Shown here piece after piece: positions 17,321-25,382 of a stretch of 64,000 nucleotides of DNA. The DNA is taken from the NCBI RefSeq assembly GCF_001428545.1, contig NZ_LMHZ01000012.1, positions 62,546-126,545 on the forward strand, in the 5' to 3' direction. The stretch is from Noviherbaspirillum sp. Root189. Its GTDB lineage: Bacteria; Pseudomonadota; Gammaproteobacteria; Burkholderiales; Burkholderiaceae_D. The translations under genes were made by a program, and so were the position numbers. The notes below the pieces were generated by a model, which saw only the letters and a list, made by a program, of their open reading frames with translations, searched no databases and was not told where the DNA came from. Position 1 is the stretch's first letter, and each line of letters opens with the position of its first letter.

Positions 17321-18556
17321 TTAGGATATCGCAGCGGACGGCGATACGCTCTTGCGGCCCCTTCCCATGCGTAGGAGGAGTAACAATTTATTCCGAACAT
17401 AATTGGAAGCGCCAACCTCAAGGAATCTATGCGACAACGCTGCTACCAAAATCGATGCCACAGTGGTGAGAATTAGCATAGAAAACCCGCTCGTTAGATC
17501 CCCTCTTTCTAGCCTGACGAACAACTTCGGTAACGTCTCTTGTACAAGTGGATGCCAAAGGTAGAGGGAGAATGAAATATCGCCAAGATAAGAGAGCGAG
17601 GCCGGTGCATCAATCTGGCGCTGCTTACTCCCAATTGCGAAAATCAACATCATTGGTATCAGGGAGCATCCCCATTCGAGGACGCCGTGTCCCATTTCGA
17701 ACTGGGTCATATATTGCCAGATAACAAATGACACTGATGCGAACAGAAGCAGATTAATGACCGTCTTATTGGAAATCGAGATTCGCGAACGGTAAATTAG
17801 CCCGATAAAGACACCTACTGCAAATTGCCAAATGATTGGTGACGTTATTAGGTTCAGGTACGCTCGCTTAAACCCAAAGTCCGTATGTGTGCCCAGTACG
17901 ACTATTCCATTCAAATAGGGAATCAGGAGTAGCGATATGCTTAACCATGCCGCTAAAATTGCCCATCTGGCGCGGCCGAACAGCATAGATAGAGCAAAGA
18001 TTACGTAGAAATACATTTCGTAACTGAGTGACCATCCTACTGAAAGCACAGGAAACCCGAAGTCAGGCGGAGCGCCATTTCCAATAGGGAGGAAGAACAG
18101 AGAATAAACAAACCTGCGTAAATTCCCCGCCTCTTGAAGGTAACTCAGTCCATCCAGGCTAACGAACAGATACGCAATTGTCGCAACCGCGTACACCGGC
18201 CACACACGCGAAAAGCGCTTCACCAAGAACTCTGCGACGTACACTGGCGAGCCATCTGACCGGGCAGTCGTATGAACCATAATAAAACCGCTCACGATAA
18301 AGAAGAGCGCAACTCCCATTGAGCCGCCTGGACCAAATAATTGGTATCCTAGTCCCGTACCATACGGACTAACAAAGCGACTGCCATGATAAAGAACGAC
18401 GATTAGTGCGGCAGCGCCACGAAAGGCTTGAATAAAGTCAAGCCGAGCTTCCGGTTGTGCGACAACCTGCCTTGCACCATTTATAGAGGCAGCCAGTGAC
18501 ATATTCGACGTTGCGAGCGACGAACCCATTGAATTAGGATGAAGGTTAACGGCCAT
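17321..18556 (-). CDS. Acyltransferase-3 family membrane protein (OafA/Oac-like)
   Basis: The 411-residue protein has about ten hydrophobic segments and the family's N-terminal signature: IQAFRGAAALIVVLYH with the conserved Arg and His, then GSMGVALFFIVSGFIM. Acyltransferase-3 enzymes move acetyl or similar groups onto cell-surface sugars in the inner membrane. Base composition is lower in G+C than in the housekeeping genes, like the rest of this cluster. It is the last gene of the minus-strand run that includes the GT-C-like protein and DprE1/DprE2 homologues, with gaps of about 100 bp. It is therefore the candidate for acylating the arabinose-containing product; that target is inference. 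No clear Shine-Dalgarno is seen. Confidence 0.88.
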   Translation of the reverse strand: MAVNLHPNSMGSSLATSNMSLAASINGARQVVAQPEARLDFIQAFRGAAALIVVLYHGSRFVSPYGTGLGYQLFGPGGSMGVALFFIVSGFIMVHTTARSDGSPVYVAEFLVKRFSRVWPVYAVATIAYLFVSLDGLSYLQEAGNLRRFVYSLFFLPIGNGAPPDFGFPVLSVGWSLSYEMYFYVIFALSMLFGRARWAILAAWLSISLLLIPYLNGIVVLGTHTDFGFKRAYLNLITSPIIWQFAVGVFIGLIYRSRISISNKTVINLLLFASVSFVIWQYMTQFEMGHGVLEWGCSLIPMMLIFAIGSKQRQIDAPASLSYLGDISFSLYLWHPLVQETLPKLFVRLERGDLTSGFSMLILTTVASILVAALSHRFLEVGASNYVRNKLLLLLRMGRGRKSVSPSAAIS

Positions 18557-18666
18557 CTGATTGTGAGTTTATTGCGTTGGATTGCGCATTATGCAGTTAA
18601 TGCCATAAGAATTGGCCCTGACCTCTACGTGAGAAGAGGCACACCCCTTATGGATAACTGCGGGCG

Positions 18667-19974
18667 TCAGGAACCATTTCGTGAAAGAAGCCTTTCAGTA
18701 TGTTCACGAAGTCTTTTCTCATGCCGCTTCTTACTGCCCAAGAACTGCGGATAGCTCCAGTCGAACAGATACTCCGGATACTGATCAATACTCGGTTCAC
18801 TATTCCACGCAGCCGTCCATTGATTAAATAGCCCTGAATAGGTATTTACTGCGATGGAAAATAGTATTGATAGTGCCAGAAGCCCTATCCCGACTTTAGC
18901 CCGAAGCCCGTATATGGAGACGGGCCAAGTGAATAACGTTAATAAGAAAAGGCCCGGCAATACGTCAGTCATTAACCGGGCTCCGAAAGAGTACCCAGCC
19001 CACCAATGAGGAAATCTCGAAATAAATAAAAGATGAATAACTGGCCAGGCAAGTCCGACTAACAGCCACGACTTTTTTATGGACCAGCTTTTCTCCCCAC
19101 TCCGGTAACACAACCATGCGATCAAGATAAATGGCGAATAGATTAACAATCCGCGCGCCGGGCTAAGCAAGTTACCGTAAAGTGCTTGAGCAAAATAGCC
19201 ACCGGCCAAGCGCTTGGGTAGATAGTAATCTGGAAGAATCTGCCCAAATTCATGCAAGCTAAAACCGATGAAACAGCCGATAAGCACAGCTAAGAGTAAT
19301 GCGCATTTGACAGCCGATTTCCTATGATGCGTAAAGAGGAAAAGTAACACGCAGGGAGAAAGCAATGCCAGAGTGGGACGGCACAGATAAGCGAAGAAAA
19401 GGAAGAGAGCAATTCCTGGCCAAACGCCAGGGCTGTTGTCTTGAGCCGACTTGACGGCAAAGTAAATCGCTAGAAAGGAAAATACAACAGCAAAATTATG
19501 TGACCATAGCGCGGTGCCGGAAGTACTCGCTAACGAAGTACCAAACCAGAATGCGCTGCTGACAAAGAGCGCATTCCAGGGCCCTAAGAAACGCCTTGCA
19601 AGCATAATCATCAAGGCAAGGGTCGCTACGGCAGTAATTGACGCAATCATCATCTGAATCTGGTATTCAGATTGAACTATTTGAAATCCCCATCCTTTCG
19701 CCACTGCCACAAAAGGAATGCTGGCGATCGACGTACCAATTGGGAAATAATAATAAAAATGCCCGTTCTTCTCATGTATAGCTACACCATAGCCATTCCG
19801 AACCTGGGCATCATAATGGTCGAGCTTAATCGTTTTATGGTCGATAATGGATTCGGTCACTAGCAGTGACGCACGTGGATCTGAGCCACCGTATCGCAAG
19901 TTGGAAAACGTTACACATAAAAACGCGATTACCAGAACCAACAAGCTTAAAACATTTATTCTTTTTGTGACCAT
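18667..19974 (-). CDS. Polytopic membrane protein, candidate GT-C glycosyltransferase
   Basis: The 435-residue protein has roughly ten to twelve membrane helices and a hydrophilic first loop that is rich in Tyr/His/Lys/Asp (ESIIDHKTIKLDHYDAQV, NGHFYYYFPIG). The layout, with acidic residues in the first extracytoplasmic loop, resembles lipid-phosphosugar-dependent GT-C glycosyltransferases, but I recognise no named family. GGAGG lies 7 nt before the ATG. The gene sits between the acyltransferase and the DprE1/DprE2-type genes, so it is the best candidate to transfer arabinofuranose from polyprenyl phosphate to an acceptor in the periplasm. The acceptor is not encoded nearby (no pilin or O-antigen gene is seen). 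Confidence is high that it is a gene and moderate for the role. Confidence 0.75.
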   Translation of the reverse strand: MVTKRINVLSLLVLVIAFLCVTFSNLRYGGSDPRASLLVTESIIDHKTIKLDHYDAQVRNGYGVAIHEKNGHFYYYFPIGTSIASIPFVAVAKGWGFQIVQSEYQIQMMIASITAVATLALMIMLARRFLGPWNALFVSSAFWFGTSLASTSGTALWSHNFAVVFSFLAIYFAVKSAQDNSPGVWPGIALFLFFAYLCRPTLALLSPCVLLFLFTHHRKSAVKCALLLAVLIGCFIGFSLHEFGQILPDYYLPKRLAGGYFAQALYGNLLSPARGLLIYSPFILIAWLCYRSGEKSWSIKKSWLLVGLAWPVIHLLFISRFPHWWAGYSFGARLMTDVLPGLFLLTLFTWPVSIYGLRAKVGIGLLALSILFSIAVNTYSGLFNQWTAAWNSEPSIDQYPEYLFDWSYPQFLGSKKRHEKRLREHTERLLSRNGS

Positions 19975-20104
19975 AATTTATCCTCCAATTGGTGGGCAAC
20001 ATTCTGCATGTGCCCATAATCCAATTGGACCTTGATTAAGCAATTTAATAATACCGGCTTTGGCAAGCAGCCGAGCCCGGGACAAGCTTTTTTGCCGGTT
20101 ACTC

Positions 20105-20857
20105 TTAGATGTTCAGCTTGTTGAATATTCGCGAAGGAAGATGCTTGATGACCAGCATGATCAACTGCCATTTTCCTGGTACATAAGCAACGGCGCGCCC
20201 AGTGTCAGCCGCTTTAACAATTCTCATTGCAACGTCTTCAACAGAGGCAAGTTTAGCGCCTTGGCTTTTTAACTGTGCCGTCATTGGCGTATCAGTCGGC
20301 CCGGGTTTGATTAAAACGACGCGTATATCTGTACCCGCAAATCGATGTTGCAACCCTTGAGCATACCGTGTGACGAGGCCTTTCGCCGCTCCGTAGACAT
20401 AATTGGATTTTCTTCCGCGATCACCAGCGACTGACCCAATGATGATTAGTGTGCCTTGATTTGCTTTAGCCATATGTCCTGCAAATGCTTCAGCAAACAA
20501 TACAGGCGAGACAGCATTAATCTCTAACGCATTTTGGCATGCCGCCAAATCTGATTCACAAACCTTTTGATCTGGCAGCGAGCCATGTGCAATTAACACT
20601 ACATCAACTGCGCCAGCAGCAACGATACTGTCGGCTGCGGCTTGAATCGCAGCAGGCTCATCGAATCTCGTTGACATTGTGCGAACAATAGATTGCGAAT
20701 TCCTGACTCGGAGATCTGCGGCTACCCTCTCGATACGCGTGCCATCCCTTCCTACAAGCGTTAGGTCAACATTTTCCCGTTCAGTCCATAAACGGGCGCA
20801 ATGTTCGGCAATGGCGGAAGTCGCCCCAATGATGACGATTCTTTTTTTGTTTTTCAA
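20105..20857 (-). CDS. dprE2: DprE2-like short-chain reductase (polyprenylphosphoryl-2-keto-ribose reductase)
   Basis: This 250-residue short-chain dehydrogenase has the cofactor loop GATSAIAE, the catalytic Ser in GSVAGDRGRKS and the YGAAK motif (Tyr and Lys). Its best-known relative of this form is mycobacterial DprE2 (Rv3791), which reduces the 2-keto intermediate made by DprE1 to polyprenylphosphoryl-beta-D-arabinofuranose. Directly upstream, one base away, is the DprE1-like gene, the same order as in mycobacteria. The start is TTG at 20857: no ATG is available because an in-frame stop lies shortly upstream, and GGGA precedes it, so translation is probably coupled to the DprE1 stop. Confidence 0.88.
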   Translation of the reverse strand: MKNKKRIVIIGATSAIAEHCARLWTERENVDLTLVGRDGTRIERVAADLRVRNSQSIVRTMSTRFDEPAAIQAAADSIVAAGAVDVVLIAHGSLPDQKVCESDLAACQNALEINAVSPVLFAEAFAGHMAKANQGTLIIIGSVAGDRGRKSNYVYGAAKGLVTRYAQGLQHRFAGTDIRVVLIKPGPTDTPMTAQLKSQGAKLASVEDVAMRIVKAADTGRAVAYVPGKWQLIMLVIKHLPSRIFNKLNI

Positions 20858-20858
20858 T

Positions 20859-22157
20859 TTAATATCCCATTAAGCGACGTGACAATGCTGAGGAAATGCC
20901 TGGGTCGCGATACTGCATAAATTCGATATGACGGGGATAACCGGATTCAAAGAGATCTCGTGGCATTCGCGCGTCCTTTGCCGGATACAAGCGTCCTCCA
21001 CTGTCTCTCACGATGGCGTCAAGCCGGTCAAAAAGCTTCAAGGTTTTTTCGCCGTTGTTTGGAAAATCCAGTGCCAGGGTTACGCCCGGCTGTGGGAAGC
21101 TTAGCATTCCAAGAGACTGACGGTGACCAAAGGTTTTCAGGACGGCCAAGAAGGAGCCTTCGCCGGAACGCGCAATTTCCTTAAGCATGGCATGAATCGG
21201 CAATTTTCCCGCAGTTCTAGGAACGACACTCTGATATTGATAAAACCCCTTGGGTCCGTACATCCGATTCCAATGCAGCAAATTATCAAGGGGATAAAAG
21301 AAGGATTCGTAGTGTGCTGTCTGGCGCCCTGCCTTCATCTTCTTCAGCGTAAAGTAAGCCGAATTGAAAGGACGAAGCGATAGTCGATTAACCAAGGAAA
21401 CTGGGGGCACGAACGGCATTGAAAAACTTCGTGACTTGCGCGGCTCCGGAATTTTGGCATCAATATGCCTGCCACGCATAAATAGGCCGCGGCTCTCGGT
21501 TCCGGACAAGCAGTCAATCCAGGATACGGTATGCTCCCATTCTGCTTCGGAAGCATCAGACAAACTGAAAAAATCGTCCAGATTTCCGAAGGGGATAGAT
21601 TCGGTATCGAGCCACGGACTCGCTACTCGTTTTAATTGTATTTCTGCTTCAACTATTACACCCGTTAAACCCAAGCCGCCTACTGTAGCCGCAAACCATG
21701 CCGAAAGGCGCTCTGGGCCGCATTCGATAATCTCTCCATCGGTTCGGACCAGCCGAATTCTATGTAAGTGGTTACCAAAAGAGCCAACAGCATGATGATT
21801 CTTTCCATGTATGTCGTTAGCAATGGCGCCGCCCACAGTCAACAACTGCGTACCTGGTGTAGTTGGAAGAATCCATCCTTGTGGAATGGTGAGCTTTTGA
21901 ATGTCGCGCAACAGAACACCGGCCTCACACACAAGTCGGCCAGTCTGTCGATTGAATTCGATAAAACGATCCAGCCCAGTTGTAATCCAGAGGATTCCAT
22001 CTGGATTGAGACAGCTATCCCCGTAGCTCCGGCCCATACCATAAGCCAGACCGGGTCGCTTAGATACCAGCACGTCGGGTACGCTGCTGCGATCGCTTAG
22101 TTCAACGACCTCATGTGGAAATTCCCCAAGGCGGCCCCAAGAGGAAATGCGCTTCAT
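20859..22157 (-). CDS. dprE1: DprE1-like FAD oxidase (polyprenylphosphoryl-beta-D-ribose 2'-oxidase)
   Basis: The 432-residue flavoprotein has the FAD-binding motif YGMGRSYGD (about 39-47) and VGGAIANDIHGKNHH followed by GSFGNH (about 108-130), which are diagnostic of DprE1. The active-site lysine is kept in LYPAKDAR. At the position of mycobacterial Cys387, the target of benzothiazinones, the sequence reads GVTLALDFP, so Ala replaces Cys. It oxidises C2 of polyprenylphosphoryl ribose, the first half of the epimerisation to arabinose. Its start overlaps the stop of the GtrA-like gene by 4 bases (ATGA), and the DprE2-like gene follows after one base. Confidence 0.92.
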   Translation of the reverse strand: MKRISSWGRLGEFPHEVVELSDRSSVPDVLVSKRPGLAYGMGRSYGDSCLNPDGILWITTGLDRFIEFNRQTGRLVCEAGVLLRDIQKLTIPQGWILPTTPGTQLLTVGGAIANDIHGKNHHAVGSFGNHLHRIRLVRTDGEIIECGPERLSAWFAATVGGLGLTGVIVEAEIQLKRVASPWLDTESIPFGNLDDFFSLSDASEAEWEHTVSWIDCLSGTESRGLFMRGRHIDAKIPEPRKSRSFSMPFVPPVSLVNRLSLRPFNSAYFTLKKMKAGRQTAHYESFFYPLDNLLHWNRMYGPKGFYQYQSVVPRTAGKLPIHAMLKEIARSGEGSFLAVLKTFGHRQSLGMLSFPQPGVTLALDFPNNGEKTLKLFDRLDAIVRDSGGRLYPAKDARMPRDLFESGYPRHIEFMQYRDPGISSALSRRLMGY

Positions 22158-22555
22158 TTCCCATCCTTTCGGAAGACGAAATGCTTATCCAAGTGGTACT
22201 TCGCCACGTAACCTATTGTCAGTCCGATGATGCCGCCTAAGTAACGCATTTCTTTGCTTGCGAATAGAAAATGAAAAATGAACTCCGATCCCCAAAAGAT
22301 GACCGTCGTCAGGAGACCCATTGCGGTATAAATCACAAATGTCTGACGGTCGTGTGCCGCATCGCGTGCACGAAAATTGAATATGTATCGCTTATCAAGG
22401 ATGTACTTGACCACTAGCCCAAGGCCGGTCCCGGCAATCACGGACAACAGGACGGCAAAAGCGCCTTGGTAACAACGGAGGAGTATGTCTTGAGCTGCAA
22501 TATTTGCAATGGTCGCAATTAATGCGAGAATTGCGTATGTGGTTGCCATTTTCAT
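22154..22555 (-). CDS. GtrA-family small membrane protein (Rv3789-like)
   Basis: From the ATG at 22555 the protein has 133 residues and four predicted membrane helices, the full length of a GtrA-family protein. The segments VVKYILDKRYIFNF and GYVAKYHLDKHFVFRK are the two paired Lys/Asp/Phe motifs of the family. The longer open frame upstream is not credible because it covers the divergent UbiA gene. In mycobacteria the GtrA-like Rv3789 lies beside dprE1 and has been proposed as a flippase or anchoring partner for decaprenylphosphoryl-arabinose. The same role is inferred here. It is first in the operon GtrA-DprE1-DprE2-GT-acyltransferase; only 37 bp separate it from the divergent UbiA gene. 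Confidence 0.9.
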   Translation of the reverse strand: MKMATTYAILALIATIANIAAQDILLRCYQGAFAVLLSVIAGTGLGLVVKYILDKRYIFNFRARDAAHDRQTFVIYTAMGLLTTVIFWGSEFIFHFLFASKEMRYLGGIIGLTIGYVAKYHLDKHFVFRKDGK

Positions 22556-22592
22556 TTGGCAAATTCTCCAATATATCACCAAGGTTATCAAG

Positions 22593-23477
22593 ATGCACAA
22601 TACCGTCACAGCGCGACCACTCCTTGCGCAGTTTTTTGGAGTGGTCGCTCTGATGCGTCCAAAGCAGTGGATAAAAAATGGATTCGTCCTTGCCCCTCTC
22701 ATTTTTTCAGGCGTTTTTTTAGATTTCAGCGCGATCAGGCAGGCCCTCATTGCCGTCGTGCTCTTCTGCATCGCATCTTCGTCAACGTACATCATCAATG
22801 ACATGCATGATGTCGATCGTGATCGACGTCATCCTAAAAAGTCGAAGACTCGTCCACTGGCGGCTGGCCTGGTATCGTTTCCGATGGCATTTGTCTTGTT
22901 GATCCTCCTTTGGAGCGCACTATACTTTGGATGGCTACTTGCACCGGCTGTTGTAGAGGTTATTGCGGCCTATCTATTGTTGAATATTGCCTATACCTTC
23001 GCCTTGAAGCATCAGCCAGTTCTCGATATCTTTACCATTGCAATCGGTTTTGTGTTGCGAGTTTATGCCGGTGCAGTTGCATTGACCGTGCCCGTATCAA
23101 ACTGGATGTTTGTGACCACGCTTTGCCTTGCGCTGTACCTGGCGGCGGTAAAGCGGCGCCAGGAGTTGTCTCAAAGTGGAACAGAAGGGAGAAAAGTCCT
23201 AGAGAAGTATTCTGTTTCATTAGTTGACCGTTACGCTGAAATGTCGGCGATGGGTGCGCTAGTTTTTTACAGCATGTTTGTGATGTCTGCAAAGCCAGAA
23301 CTAGTCATTACAGTTCCGTTAGTGTTATTTGGATTATTTCGATACTGGTTCGTGGTAGAGGTACTTGAAGCGGGAGAGTCCCCAACAGACGCACTGATCG
23401 CTGACTGGCAATTGCTGCTTACGGTCGTTTTGTGGATGGCTTCCTGCGTTTGGGCATTATGGCCAGGACGGGTATGA
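22593..23477 (+). CDS. UbiA-family polyprenyl-phosphate phosphoribosyltransferase (DPPR synthase-like)
   Basis: The start at 22593 has AAGG nine bases upstream and gives 294 residues with about nine membrane helices. The Asp-rich motif is N69-D70-x2-D73-x3-D77 (INDMHDVDRDRRHPKK) followed by TRPLAAG. This HPKKxxTRPLAAG form is that of the DPPR synthase branch (Rv3806c) rather than quinone prenyltransferases. The enzyme would join phosphoribosyl pyrophosphate to polyprenyl phosphate, the first step to the arabinofuranose donor. The downstream phosphatase-like gene overlaps it by 4 bases. The gene diverges from the GtrA-DprE1-DprE2 run. The polyprenyl chain used (decaprenyl, undecaprenyl or octaprenyl) cannot be told from sequence. 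Confidence 0.88.
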   Translation: MHNTVTARPLLAQFFGVVALMRPKQWIKNGFVLAPLIFSGVFLDFSAIRQALIAVVLFCIASSSTYIINDMHDVDRDRRHPKKSKTRPLAAGLVSFPMAFVLLILLWSALYFGWLLAPAVVEVIAAYLLLNIAYTFALKHQPVLDIFTIAIGFVLRVYAGAVALTVPVSNWMFVTTLCLALYLAAVKRRQELSQSGTEGRKVLEKYSVSLVDRYAEMSAMGALVFYSMFVMSAKPELVITVPLVLFGLFRYWFVVEVLEAGESPTDALIADWQLLLTVVLWMASCVWALWPGRV

Positions 23478-23902
23478 ACATGGATTTGTCTTACGCCCTT
23501 ATACCATTCCTCGCCTGGCTCGTTGCCGGAAGCACTAAATTCCTTATTAATACGATTAGGGCAAAACGTTTTGCTTTTGATCTTATCGGATACGGTGGTC
23601 TGCCGAGCAACCATAGCGCTATTGTTAGCAGTACCGCAGCGTTGATTGCTCTTAAGGAGGGTATTGGCCACCCTGCCTTTGGCTTGGCAGTCACCCTAGC
23701 GTTTATCGTCATATTGGATGCGAACAGCCTGCGGCGGCAGATCGGAGCGCAAGCTGCCGTTATTAATCGCCTCACCACGCCATCGGAAGGTTTAAAACCA
23801 TTGCGCGAACGCATGGGACATACGCGCACTGAGATTGCTGCCGGGGTTTTAGTAGGAGTTGTTGTCGCATTCGTTACGTATACGTTTATTCCTATTTGGT
23901 GA
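23474..23902 (+). CDS. Divergent PAP2-family (DUF212) membrane phosphatase candidate
   Basis: The protein has 142 residues starting at an ATG that overlaps the UbiA stop (ATGA at 23474). It has four hydrophobic segments and the DUF212 signatures GGLPSNHSAIVSS, DANSLRRQIGAQA and LRERMGHTRTEIAAG. In the mycobacterial pathway a PAP2-type enzyme (Rv3807c) removes the 5-phosphate from decaprenylphosphoryl-phosphoribose; this gene is in the right place to supply that step. The Asp, Arg and His residues conserved here are compatible with phosphatase chemistry, but the activity of this divergent family is an inference. Confidence 0.8.
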   Translation: MNMDLSYALIPFLAWLVAGSTKFLINTIRAKRFAFDLIGYGGLPSNHSAIVSSTAALIALKEGIGHPAFGLAVTLAFIVILDANSLRRQIGAQAAVINRLTTPSEGLKPLRERMGHTRTEIAAGVLVGVVVAFVTYTFIPIW

Positions 23903-24025
23903 GCTTAACTAATACGGTGTCGCGCATATAACTTGATAAGCGTTGATTTCTCGTTATGGGACGTAGGGTCGTGATGAATTGCCGTTCTTGCTGTGATCCG
24001 ACAACGGGTTAGTCCAGAGATGACT

Positions 24026-24195
24026 TCATAAACGCCTCCGGAGCAGAATCATAGCCAAGGCAAGGGAGACAAAGCCGGTGTAATGTTCTATGCACCGGTT
24101 CCATCAGGTAGGCACGCGCTTGAGCTTGTTGAGTCATGCGAAAGTGCGTTCGATTTTCCAGCGTGGGGTGTACCGCCGCAGTGCTCGGCCGGACC
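24026..24195 (-). pseudogene. Decayed IS5-family transposase, C-terminal end
   Basis: Read on the minus strand one frame gives LRRYTPRWKIERTFA, a stop, then a degraded stretch with a second stop, then HYTGFVSLALAMILLRR and a final stop at 24026. These two pieces are the end of the DDE domain of IS5-type transposases (WKIERTFAW and the hydrophobic end ALAMILLRR). The Trp codon after RTFA has become TGA. The N-terminal two thirds and the terminal repeats are missing. It marks the right edge of the A+T-rich arabinose cluster and lies 60 bp downstream of dcd. Confidence 0.8.
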
Positions 24196-24254
24196 ATGGC
24201 GGCTGTGGCCTCACCTTCATGTGCAGAGAAGATGAGGTCATTTTTTATTGATGT

Positions 24255-25382
24255 TCAGGTCTTTGGCAGTGTCACGCCTATCTGCCCCTGATATTTACCG
24301 CCACGGTCTTTATAAGACACATCGCAGACTTCATCCGATTCGAAGAAGAGTACCTGCGCCACGCCTTCGTTAGCATAAATTTTTGCAGGAAGCGGCGTCG
24401 TGTTTGAAAATTCCAAAGTCACAAATCCCTCCCATTCCGGCTCAAAGGGGGTGACGTTGACAATGATCCCGCAGTTGTGGACGATTACGCCGTCCTCGAG
24501 CGCGAAGTTTTGACCCTCTGGAACCGTCAAGCAAAATACCGCATGCGTGCCCGCTCGTTTTCGCACTGAAACGACACGGTGATTTGAGGGCATGCTTGCG
24601 TCCGCATCGACTGCTTCCGTAACGGATGTCGGCAAACCGGCAAAGCGCCTCTTACACGCCTCAAGCAATTGGCTGGTCATCGCTAACGTGCCCGATAGCG
24701 GTCGATAAACCAACTCGGCGGCGCCAGTCCCATATCGATAAAGCGGCATCAATCGTTCGTCCGGCACCAAGTCCTGTGCCATAACGTAGCTTCCATCGCG
24801 ACGCATGAAACGATGATCTAGGGTCGCTGCGATTACTCGGCCATTGTCGAGCTCGATTTCCAGCAACTCATCGTATCCGACTAATCGCGGTGCGACGAGT
24901 TGCGCAACACCCAGGTCACCTCCGGGAAGCATGGTGTATCCATAGTATTCCTCATCGGGATGTAAGGCCATTGCCTGCAGCGTCATTGCGGGACGACCCA
25001 CGAGTGCAACTTTAGTATCGCCCGAAAAACAACGTGCATAAGTGGACTTACCAAGACATATGGTTAGCACATTACGTGGAATTCGAAAGTATTCCACTGT
25101 TCTCGCCAATGCAAACGAATTGGGTGGAATGATGCAATAGCCCTTGCCGGAAACGTCAACGAAGTTATTTTCATCGAAGTTCTTTGGGTCGACAATTGTG
25201 GTGTTTATATTTGTGAAGAGCTTGAATTCGTCGGCACAGCGTATATCGTATCCATAGCTTGATGTACCGTAAGAGACGATCTTATGCCCATCAACCGTCT
25301 TTACCTGATTTGGCTCGAACGGTTCAATCATGCCTGCCTCGGACGCCATGCGGCGGATCCACTTGTCGGATTTGATACTCAT
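24255..25382 (-). CDS. dcd: dCTP deaminase interrupted by an in-frame intein
   Basis: The gene encodes a 375-residue precursor. Residues 1-117 and 304-375 together make a 189-residue dCTP deaminase, the normal family length. Residues 118-303 are an intein. The host enzyme deaminates dCTP to dUTP, feeding dTMP synthesis through dUTPase and ThyA. The N-part ends in GKSTYAR and the C-part begins [16 protein letters not shown]; in E. coli Dcd the corresponding KSxxAR carries Ser111 and Arg115 of the active site and the later VLEF the catalytic Glu138 (here VTLEFSN). The precursor should be inactive until spliced. No Shine-Dalgarno is evident before the ATG. An IS remnant lies just downstream. Confidence 0.95.
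24474..25031 (-). other. Mini-intein within dcd (residues 118-303)
   Basis: The insert starts with Cys ([10 protein letters not shown], block A) and has block B as [12 protein letters not shown] with the Thr-x2-His pair. It ends with block [15 protein letters not shown] and block G GVIVHN, followed by Cys as first residue of the C-extein. Cys1, penultimate His, terminal Asn and Cys+1 are the residues needed for class 1 splicing. At 186 residues it is too short to hold a homing endonuclease of the LAGLIDADG type, and none of its motifs is seen, so it is a mini-intein. It sits between Arg117 and Cys of the deaminase active-site motif. Confidence 0.93.

Follow-up and report, generated by a model that had tools for sequence, protein, structure and literature searches.

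The 64,000-nucleotide stretch analysed here (the window; Noviherbaspirillum sp. Root189, contig NZ_LMHZ01000012.1, positions 62,546 to 126,545) contains, in the interval 17321-23902, a gene set likely to provide a lipid-linked D-arabinofuranose (D-Araf) donor. The pathway is best known from tuberculosis bacteria and has already been described in Gram-negative bacteria. A first-pass annotation, made from the letters alone, had named five genes here, encoding a UbiA-type, a phosphatase-like and a GtrA protein, DprE1 and DprE2, and all five are present as open reading frames (ORFs) with the expected family matches. Its gene count was too low: the interval comprises seven ORFs, none with internal stops, and the GT-C-type (PMT_2) and Acyl_transf_3 proteins encoded downstream of DprE2 had not been listed. 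The start codons of the GtrA gene (22555) and the UbiA gene (22593) were chosen by the N-termini of relatives. The layout is as follows:

17321..18556, minus strand: AT3 family membrane acyltransferase P0001 (Pfam Acyl_transf_3, 101.9 bits)
18667..19974, minus strand: GT-C candidate P0002, 435 aa, many transmembrane (TM) segments (Pfam PMT_2, 32.2 bits, cut-off 26.1)
20105..20857, minus strand: DprE2-type short-chain reductase P0003 (NCBIfam PRK07102 246.3 bits, DprE2 154.1 bits; Pfam adh_short 98)
20859..22157, minus strand: DprE1-type FAD oxidase P0004 (NCBIfam DprE1 326.6 bits, cut-off 500; Pfam FAD_binding_4 66.4)
22154..22555, minus strand: GtrA family protein P0005, true start near 22555 (NCBIfam gtrA_1 181.4 bits, cut-off 50; Pfam GtrA_DPMS_TM 27.4)
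22556..22592, no strand: short divergent intergenic region (starts set from relatives' N-termini)
22593..23477, plus strand: UbiA-type polyprenyl-phosphate phosphoribosyltransferase P0006, true start near 22593 (NCBIfam PRK12324 218 bits, cut-off 234; PDB match; tree)
23474..23902, plus strand: DUF212 divergent PAP2 protein (Pfam DUF212, 111.2 bits)

As had been proposed, the genes form two divergent, tightly coupled units, with ~37 bp between the GtrA start and the UbiA start. ATGA overlaps link UbiA to DUF212 and GtrA to DprE1, the GtrA stop lying over the DprE1 start. On the minus strand, gaps of 130 bp and 110 bp separate DprE2 from the GT-C candidate and the latter from the AT3 gene. The Pfam scan covered eight proteins of this region; PMT_2 is a model of the GT-C superfamily (clan).

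The UbiA protein has its best NCBIfam match in decaprenyl-phosphate phosphoribosyltransferase. In the PDB, only 8j8j and 8j8k match at E ≤ 0.01, both decaprenyl-phosphate phosphoribosyltransferases, and the alignment with 8j8j (E 9e-38) includes a common NDxxDxxxDxxHP motif. The general Pfam UbiA model gives the protein 67.9-69.7 bits, against 233.6 and 222.7 bits for the two other UbiA-family proteins of the genome. In a quick tree of 82 UbiA-type proteins, it belongs to a group (SH-aLRT 98) made up of 33 stand-alone phosphoribosyltransferases. The two further UbiA-family members of the genome are placed outside (96), on very long branches. The placement, which the first-pass annotation had named beforehand as the test of its proposal, thus is with the phosphoribosyltransferases; an identity as quinone or heme prenyltransferase is ruled out by the PDB matches, the Pfam scores and the tree.

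Residues 3-417 of the window's oxidase can be aligned with solved structures of mycobacterial DprE1 (E 1.5e-69), and DprE1 is its best NCBIfam match. For the reductase, PRK07102 ranks first and DprE2 second, and the GtrA protein scores above the cut-off of its own model. In 85 aligned DprE1 sequences, the residues matching K119 and H121 of the window protein are kept throughout, the lysine equivalent to K394 is found in 84 (one gap) and H122 in 78. The position that we take to be the mycobacterial drug-binding Cys387 is occupied by Ala in 80, Thr in 3, Ser in 2 and Cys in none of the 85; the window protein has Ala. Covalent benzothiazinone-type DprE1 inhibitors need the cysteine of the mycobacterial enzyme, and such compounds are predicted to bind none of these homologues in a cysteine-dependent way.

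A pattern scan of a species-genome collection for DprE1 loci returned at least 589 candidate stretches, at least 576 of which encode a DprE1 relative (tblastn, E ≤ 1e-3). The best 80 were kept for locus counts; they stem mostly from Proteobacteria, some from Actinobacteria and a few from other groups. A D-Araf donor cassette, already in print, is evidently common among Gram-negative bacteria and not exceptional. A mycobacteria-like pathway of this kind in a Gram-negative chromosome is not unusual, by these numbers and by a published account (PMC11127046), and the closest relatives are proteobacterial, not actinobacterial. With the window included, a DprE2-type ORF adjoins DprE1 in 80 of 81 loci (68 strictly, 12 with an over-long overlapping called ORF), the single other locus ending at a contig end, and a UbiA gene of this kind is near in 75 of 81. 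The full five-gene layout DUF212-UbiA|GtrA-DprE1-DprE2, with GtrA directly before DprE1, occurs in 11 of the 80 other loci and in the window. Two marks of Gram-negative D-Araf donor cassettes are found here: DprE1 and DprE2 homologues side by side, and a DPPRS-type UbiA protein distinct from the other UbiA proteins of the genome.

The gene identities and the UbiA grouping make polyprenyl-phosphate-D-arabinofuranose the likely donor. It is improbable that the DprE1/DprE2-like proteins use a different substrate and that the pathway yields some other pentofuranose or a lipid-linked sugar of an unrelated kind. Related systems do make ribofuranose and xylofuranose (PMC11127046), and UbiA, DprE1 and DprE2 all stay under curated cut-offs, but the company of DprE2 and UbiA in nearly all loci counted above argues for arabinose. 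So does the description by Kelly et al., in which DprE1/E2 homologues belong to the Araf-containing cases and an ORF13-type epimerase to xylose (PMC11127046).

The UbiA proteins of the 81 loci fall into 41 long and 34 short ones, with 6 loci having none in reach. Fusion of the long ones to a HAD domain was first taken from length and then checked with Pfam, where all 41 match both UbiA and HAD. A DUF212 gene stands beside 14 of 33 short UbiA genes vs. 0 of 41 long ones (Fisher p 1.8e-6, without the window; with the window 15 of 34), and the DUF212 gene adjoins a divergent UbiA gene in 14 of the 80 loci. The orientation follows the same division: the long UbiA genes, all 41, run in the same direction as DprE1, and those linked to DUF212, all 15, run divergently from it. 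Three short UbiA rows (L036, L056 and L086) are found on the HAD side of the UbiA tree. The mutual exclusion of DUF212 and the fused HAD domain suggests that the two are alternative 5'-phosphatases. In 15 DUF212 sequences, K22, P44-S45-N46-H47 (PSNH) and R113, H116 and E120 (R.GH...E) are invariant, residues that in our view resemble PAP2 phosphatase motifs. Structural alignment of the predicted DUF212 model (pLDDT 79.6) to 488 PDB chains placed a designed protein first (Z 7.4) and, at ranks 2-8, lipid or acid phosphatases with Z scores of 5.6-6.8, below the trust level for helical proteins. These phosphatases belong, as we assume, to the PAP2 type. With Foldseek, no PDB entry reached E ≤ 0.001 for the model; the PAP2-type phosphatase 5jki of B. 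subtilis was ranked seventh. The earlier term 'PAP2-like' can be kept for the protein itself, which is a DUF212 'divergent PAP2' protein, and goes no further, as no other Pfam model matched it at E ≤ 0.01. DUF212 is thus likely the 5'-phosphatase of the pathway. UbiA proteins with a fused HAD phosphatase are the PPPRS type described in PMC11127046, where P. aeruginosa is said to need in addition a separate phosphatase of another structural family, PA7_6246 (Kelly et al., PMC11127046). Among the listed papers that mention DUF212 or 'divergent PAP2', none concerns this pathway to judge by its title and the opening of its abstract, and among the articles listed no account of a DUF212/HAD alternation or of this GT-C protein was noticed.

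The epimerase pair DprE1/DprE2 seems to have moved between both UbiA types. The long/short label has to change 3-4 times on the UbiA tree and 16-18 times on the DprE1 tree, although only 3-4 of the latter changes are forced by well-supported branches. In G006, a genome of the genus, the divergent cassette is likewise present, with identities of 70% for UbiA, 71% for DUF212, 65% for GtrA, 44% for DprE1 and 42% for DprE2, and for G490 from another order the values are 69, 66, 65, 69 and 65% in the order UbiA, DUF212, GtrA, DprE1 and DprE2. The label changes together with this contrast point to a replacement of the epimerase pair.

Near the window genome, the DprE1 gene is patchy, since only 3 of 59 other relatives have it near full length with at least 44% identity: G006 (same genus) as well as G015 and G032 (same family). 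Among 16 genomes chosen from the loci, Undibacterium hunanense (84%) and Noviherbaspirillum pedocola (81%) are closest in ArgA identity. The G+C content is 48.2% in 17321-23902 vs. 57.5% in the remainder of the window, so that the lower value reported at first is borne out. At third codon positions, the G+C fraction (GC3) is 0.42-0.53 in the seven island genes, 0.61-0.78 in six other measured genes of the window and 0.55 in the intein-bearing dcd. The proposed horizontal gain agrees with the low G+C content, the patchy occurrence and the closest relatives in other families and classes; probably, the cassette was imported, a direction of transfer that we infer. An origin in Actinobacteria is unsupported. 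The five Microbacteriaceae UbiA proteins form a starred group of their own, and in the DprE1 tree Microbacteriaceae stand with Demequina and an Acidobacteria row. The suggested comparison of UbiA and DprE1 with Actinobacteria leaves the window proteins apart from the Microbacteriaceae groups and among proteobacterial kin.

Between the island and dcd, at ~24000-24230 (minus strand), there is a degenerate transposase-like frame with several stops, which we take to resemble IS5-type transposases. The insertion sequence remnant of the first-pass annotation can be recognised in it, and a search of plasmid DNA with this frame gave no match. That the whole island is a decaying, non-functional import is nevertheless very unlikely. 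The low G+C content and the frame alongside would fit such a fate, as would a second cassette in the genus (L115 8770-11138, in G006), which has UbiA and DUF212 with 72.5% identity each, a DprE2 in two ORFs and no match for DprE1. In the window, all seven ORFs are open, their motifs are conserved, and start and stop codons overlap.

The dCTP deaminase gene dcd adjoining the island (24255-25382, minus strand) contains an in-frame intein of ~187 aa at ~24471-25031. It comprises residues 118-304, begins after GKSTYAR and is matched by Pfam and TIGRFAM intein models. In cyanophage CL131, a self-excising intein was shown in dCTP deaminase (PMC6293099). Among the phage records matching the intein-bearing protein, 1 of 97 has a place that covers at least 80% of it.

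P0002 is a rare protein. It has no counterpart in 398 other genomes of the order and no match in plasmids (both at E ≤ 1e-5). Among 397 other genomes of a phylum sample, a single one, G490, encodes a full-length relative (45% identity), and in the same sample G490 is also the only genome in which the UbiA query finds more than 60% identity (72%; next best 41%). Partial P0002 matches of 27-29% in G578, G660 and G476 were not counted as relatives. When a two-row P0002 model was run against 389 further genomes of G490's order, one match was obtained, confined to the C-terminal portion absent from P0002. The GT-C gene of G490 is located ~1.47 Mb from the cassette, in a locus for an ABC-exported polysaccharide (L104) that encodes an ABC-2 membrane protein, an ATPase carrying Wzt_C, two glycosyltransferases of the GT4 type and a protein of the ManC type. 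Its product has ~120-130 extra C-terminal residues compared to P0002. An AT3 gene follows directly after the GT-C gene in G490 and likewise in the window. D32, located behind the first hydrophobic segment, is common to both GT-C proteins, and it is at such a position that a catalytic Asp is conserved in GT-C enzymes (PMC11127046).

Other cassettes have other neighbours. In 10 of the 18 DUF212-type cassettes examined (15 of the locus count plus L107, L114 and L115), a gene for a many-TM protein lies within ~130 bp; one of the 10 proteins is AT3-like. Except for two from Acinetobacter, these proteins do not match each other at E ≤ 1e-4. The neighbouring many-TM proteins vary and the donor genes recur, so that the five genes appear as the constant donor part and the GT-C gene as the variable, acceptor-specific part. 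P0002 is likely the D-arabinofuranosyltransferase, and the AT3 protein may O-acylate either the sugar added or the glycan acceptor, both roles being predictions from family and gene context. In the two Acinetobacter loci (L057 6413-8122 and L064 6577-8241), the cassette is followed by a many-TM protein with Sel1 repeats, unlike P0002. In Noviherbaspirillum pedocola (L025 13662-15089), a transferase-like gene near the cassette is split into two ORFs and is related to a single-ORF gene of Undibacterium (L023).

A different acceptor has to be considered, namely a type IV pilin as in Pseudomonas paraeruginosa. With the same donor, a GT-C-like protein with TPR repeats encoded elsewhere would perform the transfer, and the GT-C protein of the window would act otherwise. 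In the window, no pilin, TfpW or polysaccharide locus was noticed (outside 10000-31000 by a pilin N-terminus pattern and by eye, inside by eye), as the first-pass annotation had stated for pilin and TfpW. The genome has two PF00114 pilin matches, both on other contigs. One pilin gene is followed after 66 bp by a gene for a 586-aa many-TM protein with C-terminal TPR repeats (L116 5126-7525, G000:C25). A search of 14 other genomes of the genus did not find this protein, and among 45 additional genomes 3 gave weak matches, one of them in G048. Its position beside the pilin gene is that of tfpW beside pilA in P. paraeruginosa, and it is a possible pilin glycosyltransferase. In P. paraeruginosa, pilA is accompanied by tfpW and tfpX (PSPA7_5159-5161), and the donor genes PSPA7_6245-6251 are located separately, on an island (PMC12369383). 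Yet in G048 (L130), a relative of the 586-aa protein is encoded beside a pilin-like gene in a genome whose DprE1 matches are weak and partial, and the gene next in line looks by eye like a family-2 glycosyltransferase; this protein family is thus not tied to arabinose. Furthermore, the window has a transferase candidate of its own in the operon. The 586-aa protein shows no similarity to P0002 or to the one Acinetobacter GT-C protein compared, so that a close relationship to either is rejected. Pilin as acceptor is possible and not favoured; we regard it as unlikely.

The best reading of the locus, to which we assign a probability of about two in three (0.68), is an imported donor cassette combined with its own surface-glycan arabinosyltransferase of the GT-C type. 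UbiA would join phosphoribosyl pyrophosphate (PRPP) and polyprenyl phosphate, presumably undecaprenyl phosphate, to polyprenyl-phosphoryl-5-phosphoribose, from which DUF212 would take off the 5'-phosphate. Subsequent oxidation by DprE1 and reduction by DprE2 at C2 would yield polyprenyl-phosphoryl-D-arabinofuranose. GtrA, a candidate lipid-sugar flippase or accessory protein, may help the donor to the periplasmic side, where a surface glycan would receive D-Araf through the GT-C protein (18667-19974); acylation of the product by the AT3 protein is possible.

Several observations weigh against this reading. The DprE1, DprE2 and UbiA scores are below the NCBIfam curated cut-offs, and the mycobacterial equivalogs NF053785/NF053786 are missed (326.6/154.1 bits at cut-offs of 500/250), so that the proteins are not classed as such. 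Of the short UbiA genes, 19 of 34 have no DUF212 in reach, four of them at contig ends, and the modelled fold of DUF212 matches PAP2-type phosphatases weakly (Z up to 6.8). For P0002, the PDB offers no match by sequence at E ≤ 10, and its structure model, built from two sequences only, is unusable (pLDDT 46.7). The co-occurrence of a P0002 relative and a close UbiA in G490 (p 0.0025, 1 in 397) amounts to one independent genome, with the 60% line drawn after the data were seen. As to the genomes with partial P0002 matches, the UbiA match in G578 is long-type (31%), and G660 and G476 have none at E ≤ 1e-15. In 8 of the 18 DUF212-type cassettes, no counted many-TM protein is found within ~130 bp. 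Finally, there is the lack of a noticed polysaccharide locus in the window.

On a more speculative note, which we hold to be less probable than not, the locus might exemplify an arabinosylation cassette of a mobile 'plug-in' kind. Its epimerase pair would combine freely with one or the other of two unrelated 5'-phosphatases, DUF212 and a fused HAD domain, as well as with transferases that are unrelated to each other and specific for their acceptors. P0002 would then found a new D-arabinofuranosyltransferase family that decorates an ABC-exported polysaccharide, with AT3 capping the arabinose. In any case, the D-Araf donor pathway, at which tuberculosis drug work is aimed, is widespread among Proteobacteria and apparently forms a movable module. 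What can be gained from the locus is a testable role for DUF212, as polyprenyl-phosphoribose 5'-phosphatase, and a candidate for a new arabinosyltransferase.

Published Gram-negative D-Araf systems place the finding in an already known kind of system. We assume that the donor genes of P. paraeruginosa include DprE1/DprE2 homologues. The pili of this species carry D-Araf, and the donor genes PSPA7_6245-6251 are part of a genomic island (PMC12369383); the pathway with TfpW and pilin goes back to Harvey (2011) and Kus (2008), as cited in PMC12369383 and PMC11127046. The attachment of D-Araf polymers to pilin is ascribed to the glycosyltransferase TfpW (PMC11841053). For pentofuranose side chains, Kelly et al. 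(2024; PMC11127046) presented a general scheme in which DprE1/E2 belong to the cases that contain Araf, and an all-alpha-D-Araf polysaccharide was reported for Devosia submarina within a project on Gram-negative deep-sea bacteria (PMC8707391).

With P. paraeruginosa, as described there, the window shares the Gram-negative background, a PPPRS without fused phosphatase, a separate phosphatase candidate (there PA7_6246), the island setting and D-Araf as the product, which for the window is predicted. Unlike P. paraeruginosa, it has no noticed pilin or TfpW, and a GT-C candidate and AT3 are in the operon; this comparison was made by description, not by sequence. From the three-component system outlined by Kelly et al., which consists of PPPRS, MATE flippase and GT136, it does not differ in the PRPP-derived polyprenyl-phosphate ribose, the epimerase step and the periplasmic GT-C transferase. 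It differs in having a stand-alone UbiA and DUF212 instead of a HAD-fused PPPRS, and GtrA instead of MATE alongside; among the eight scanned proteins of the region, none matched a MATE-family flippase. P0002 matched PMT_2 only and is set beside GT136 by description alone. With the mycobacterial decaprenylphosphoryl arabinose (DPA) pathway (Rv3806c, Rv3807c, Rv3790, Rv3791 and Rv3789), the reaction order and homologous DPPR synthase and DprE1 are common, in contrast to the scores under curated cut-offs, the Ala at the drug-binding cysteine position and DUF212 as phosphatase candidate. Beyond these known systems, the locus and its relatives add the mutual exclusion of DUF212 and HAD, the mixing of the epimerase pair between both types and a rare adjacent GT-C gene.

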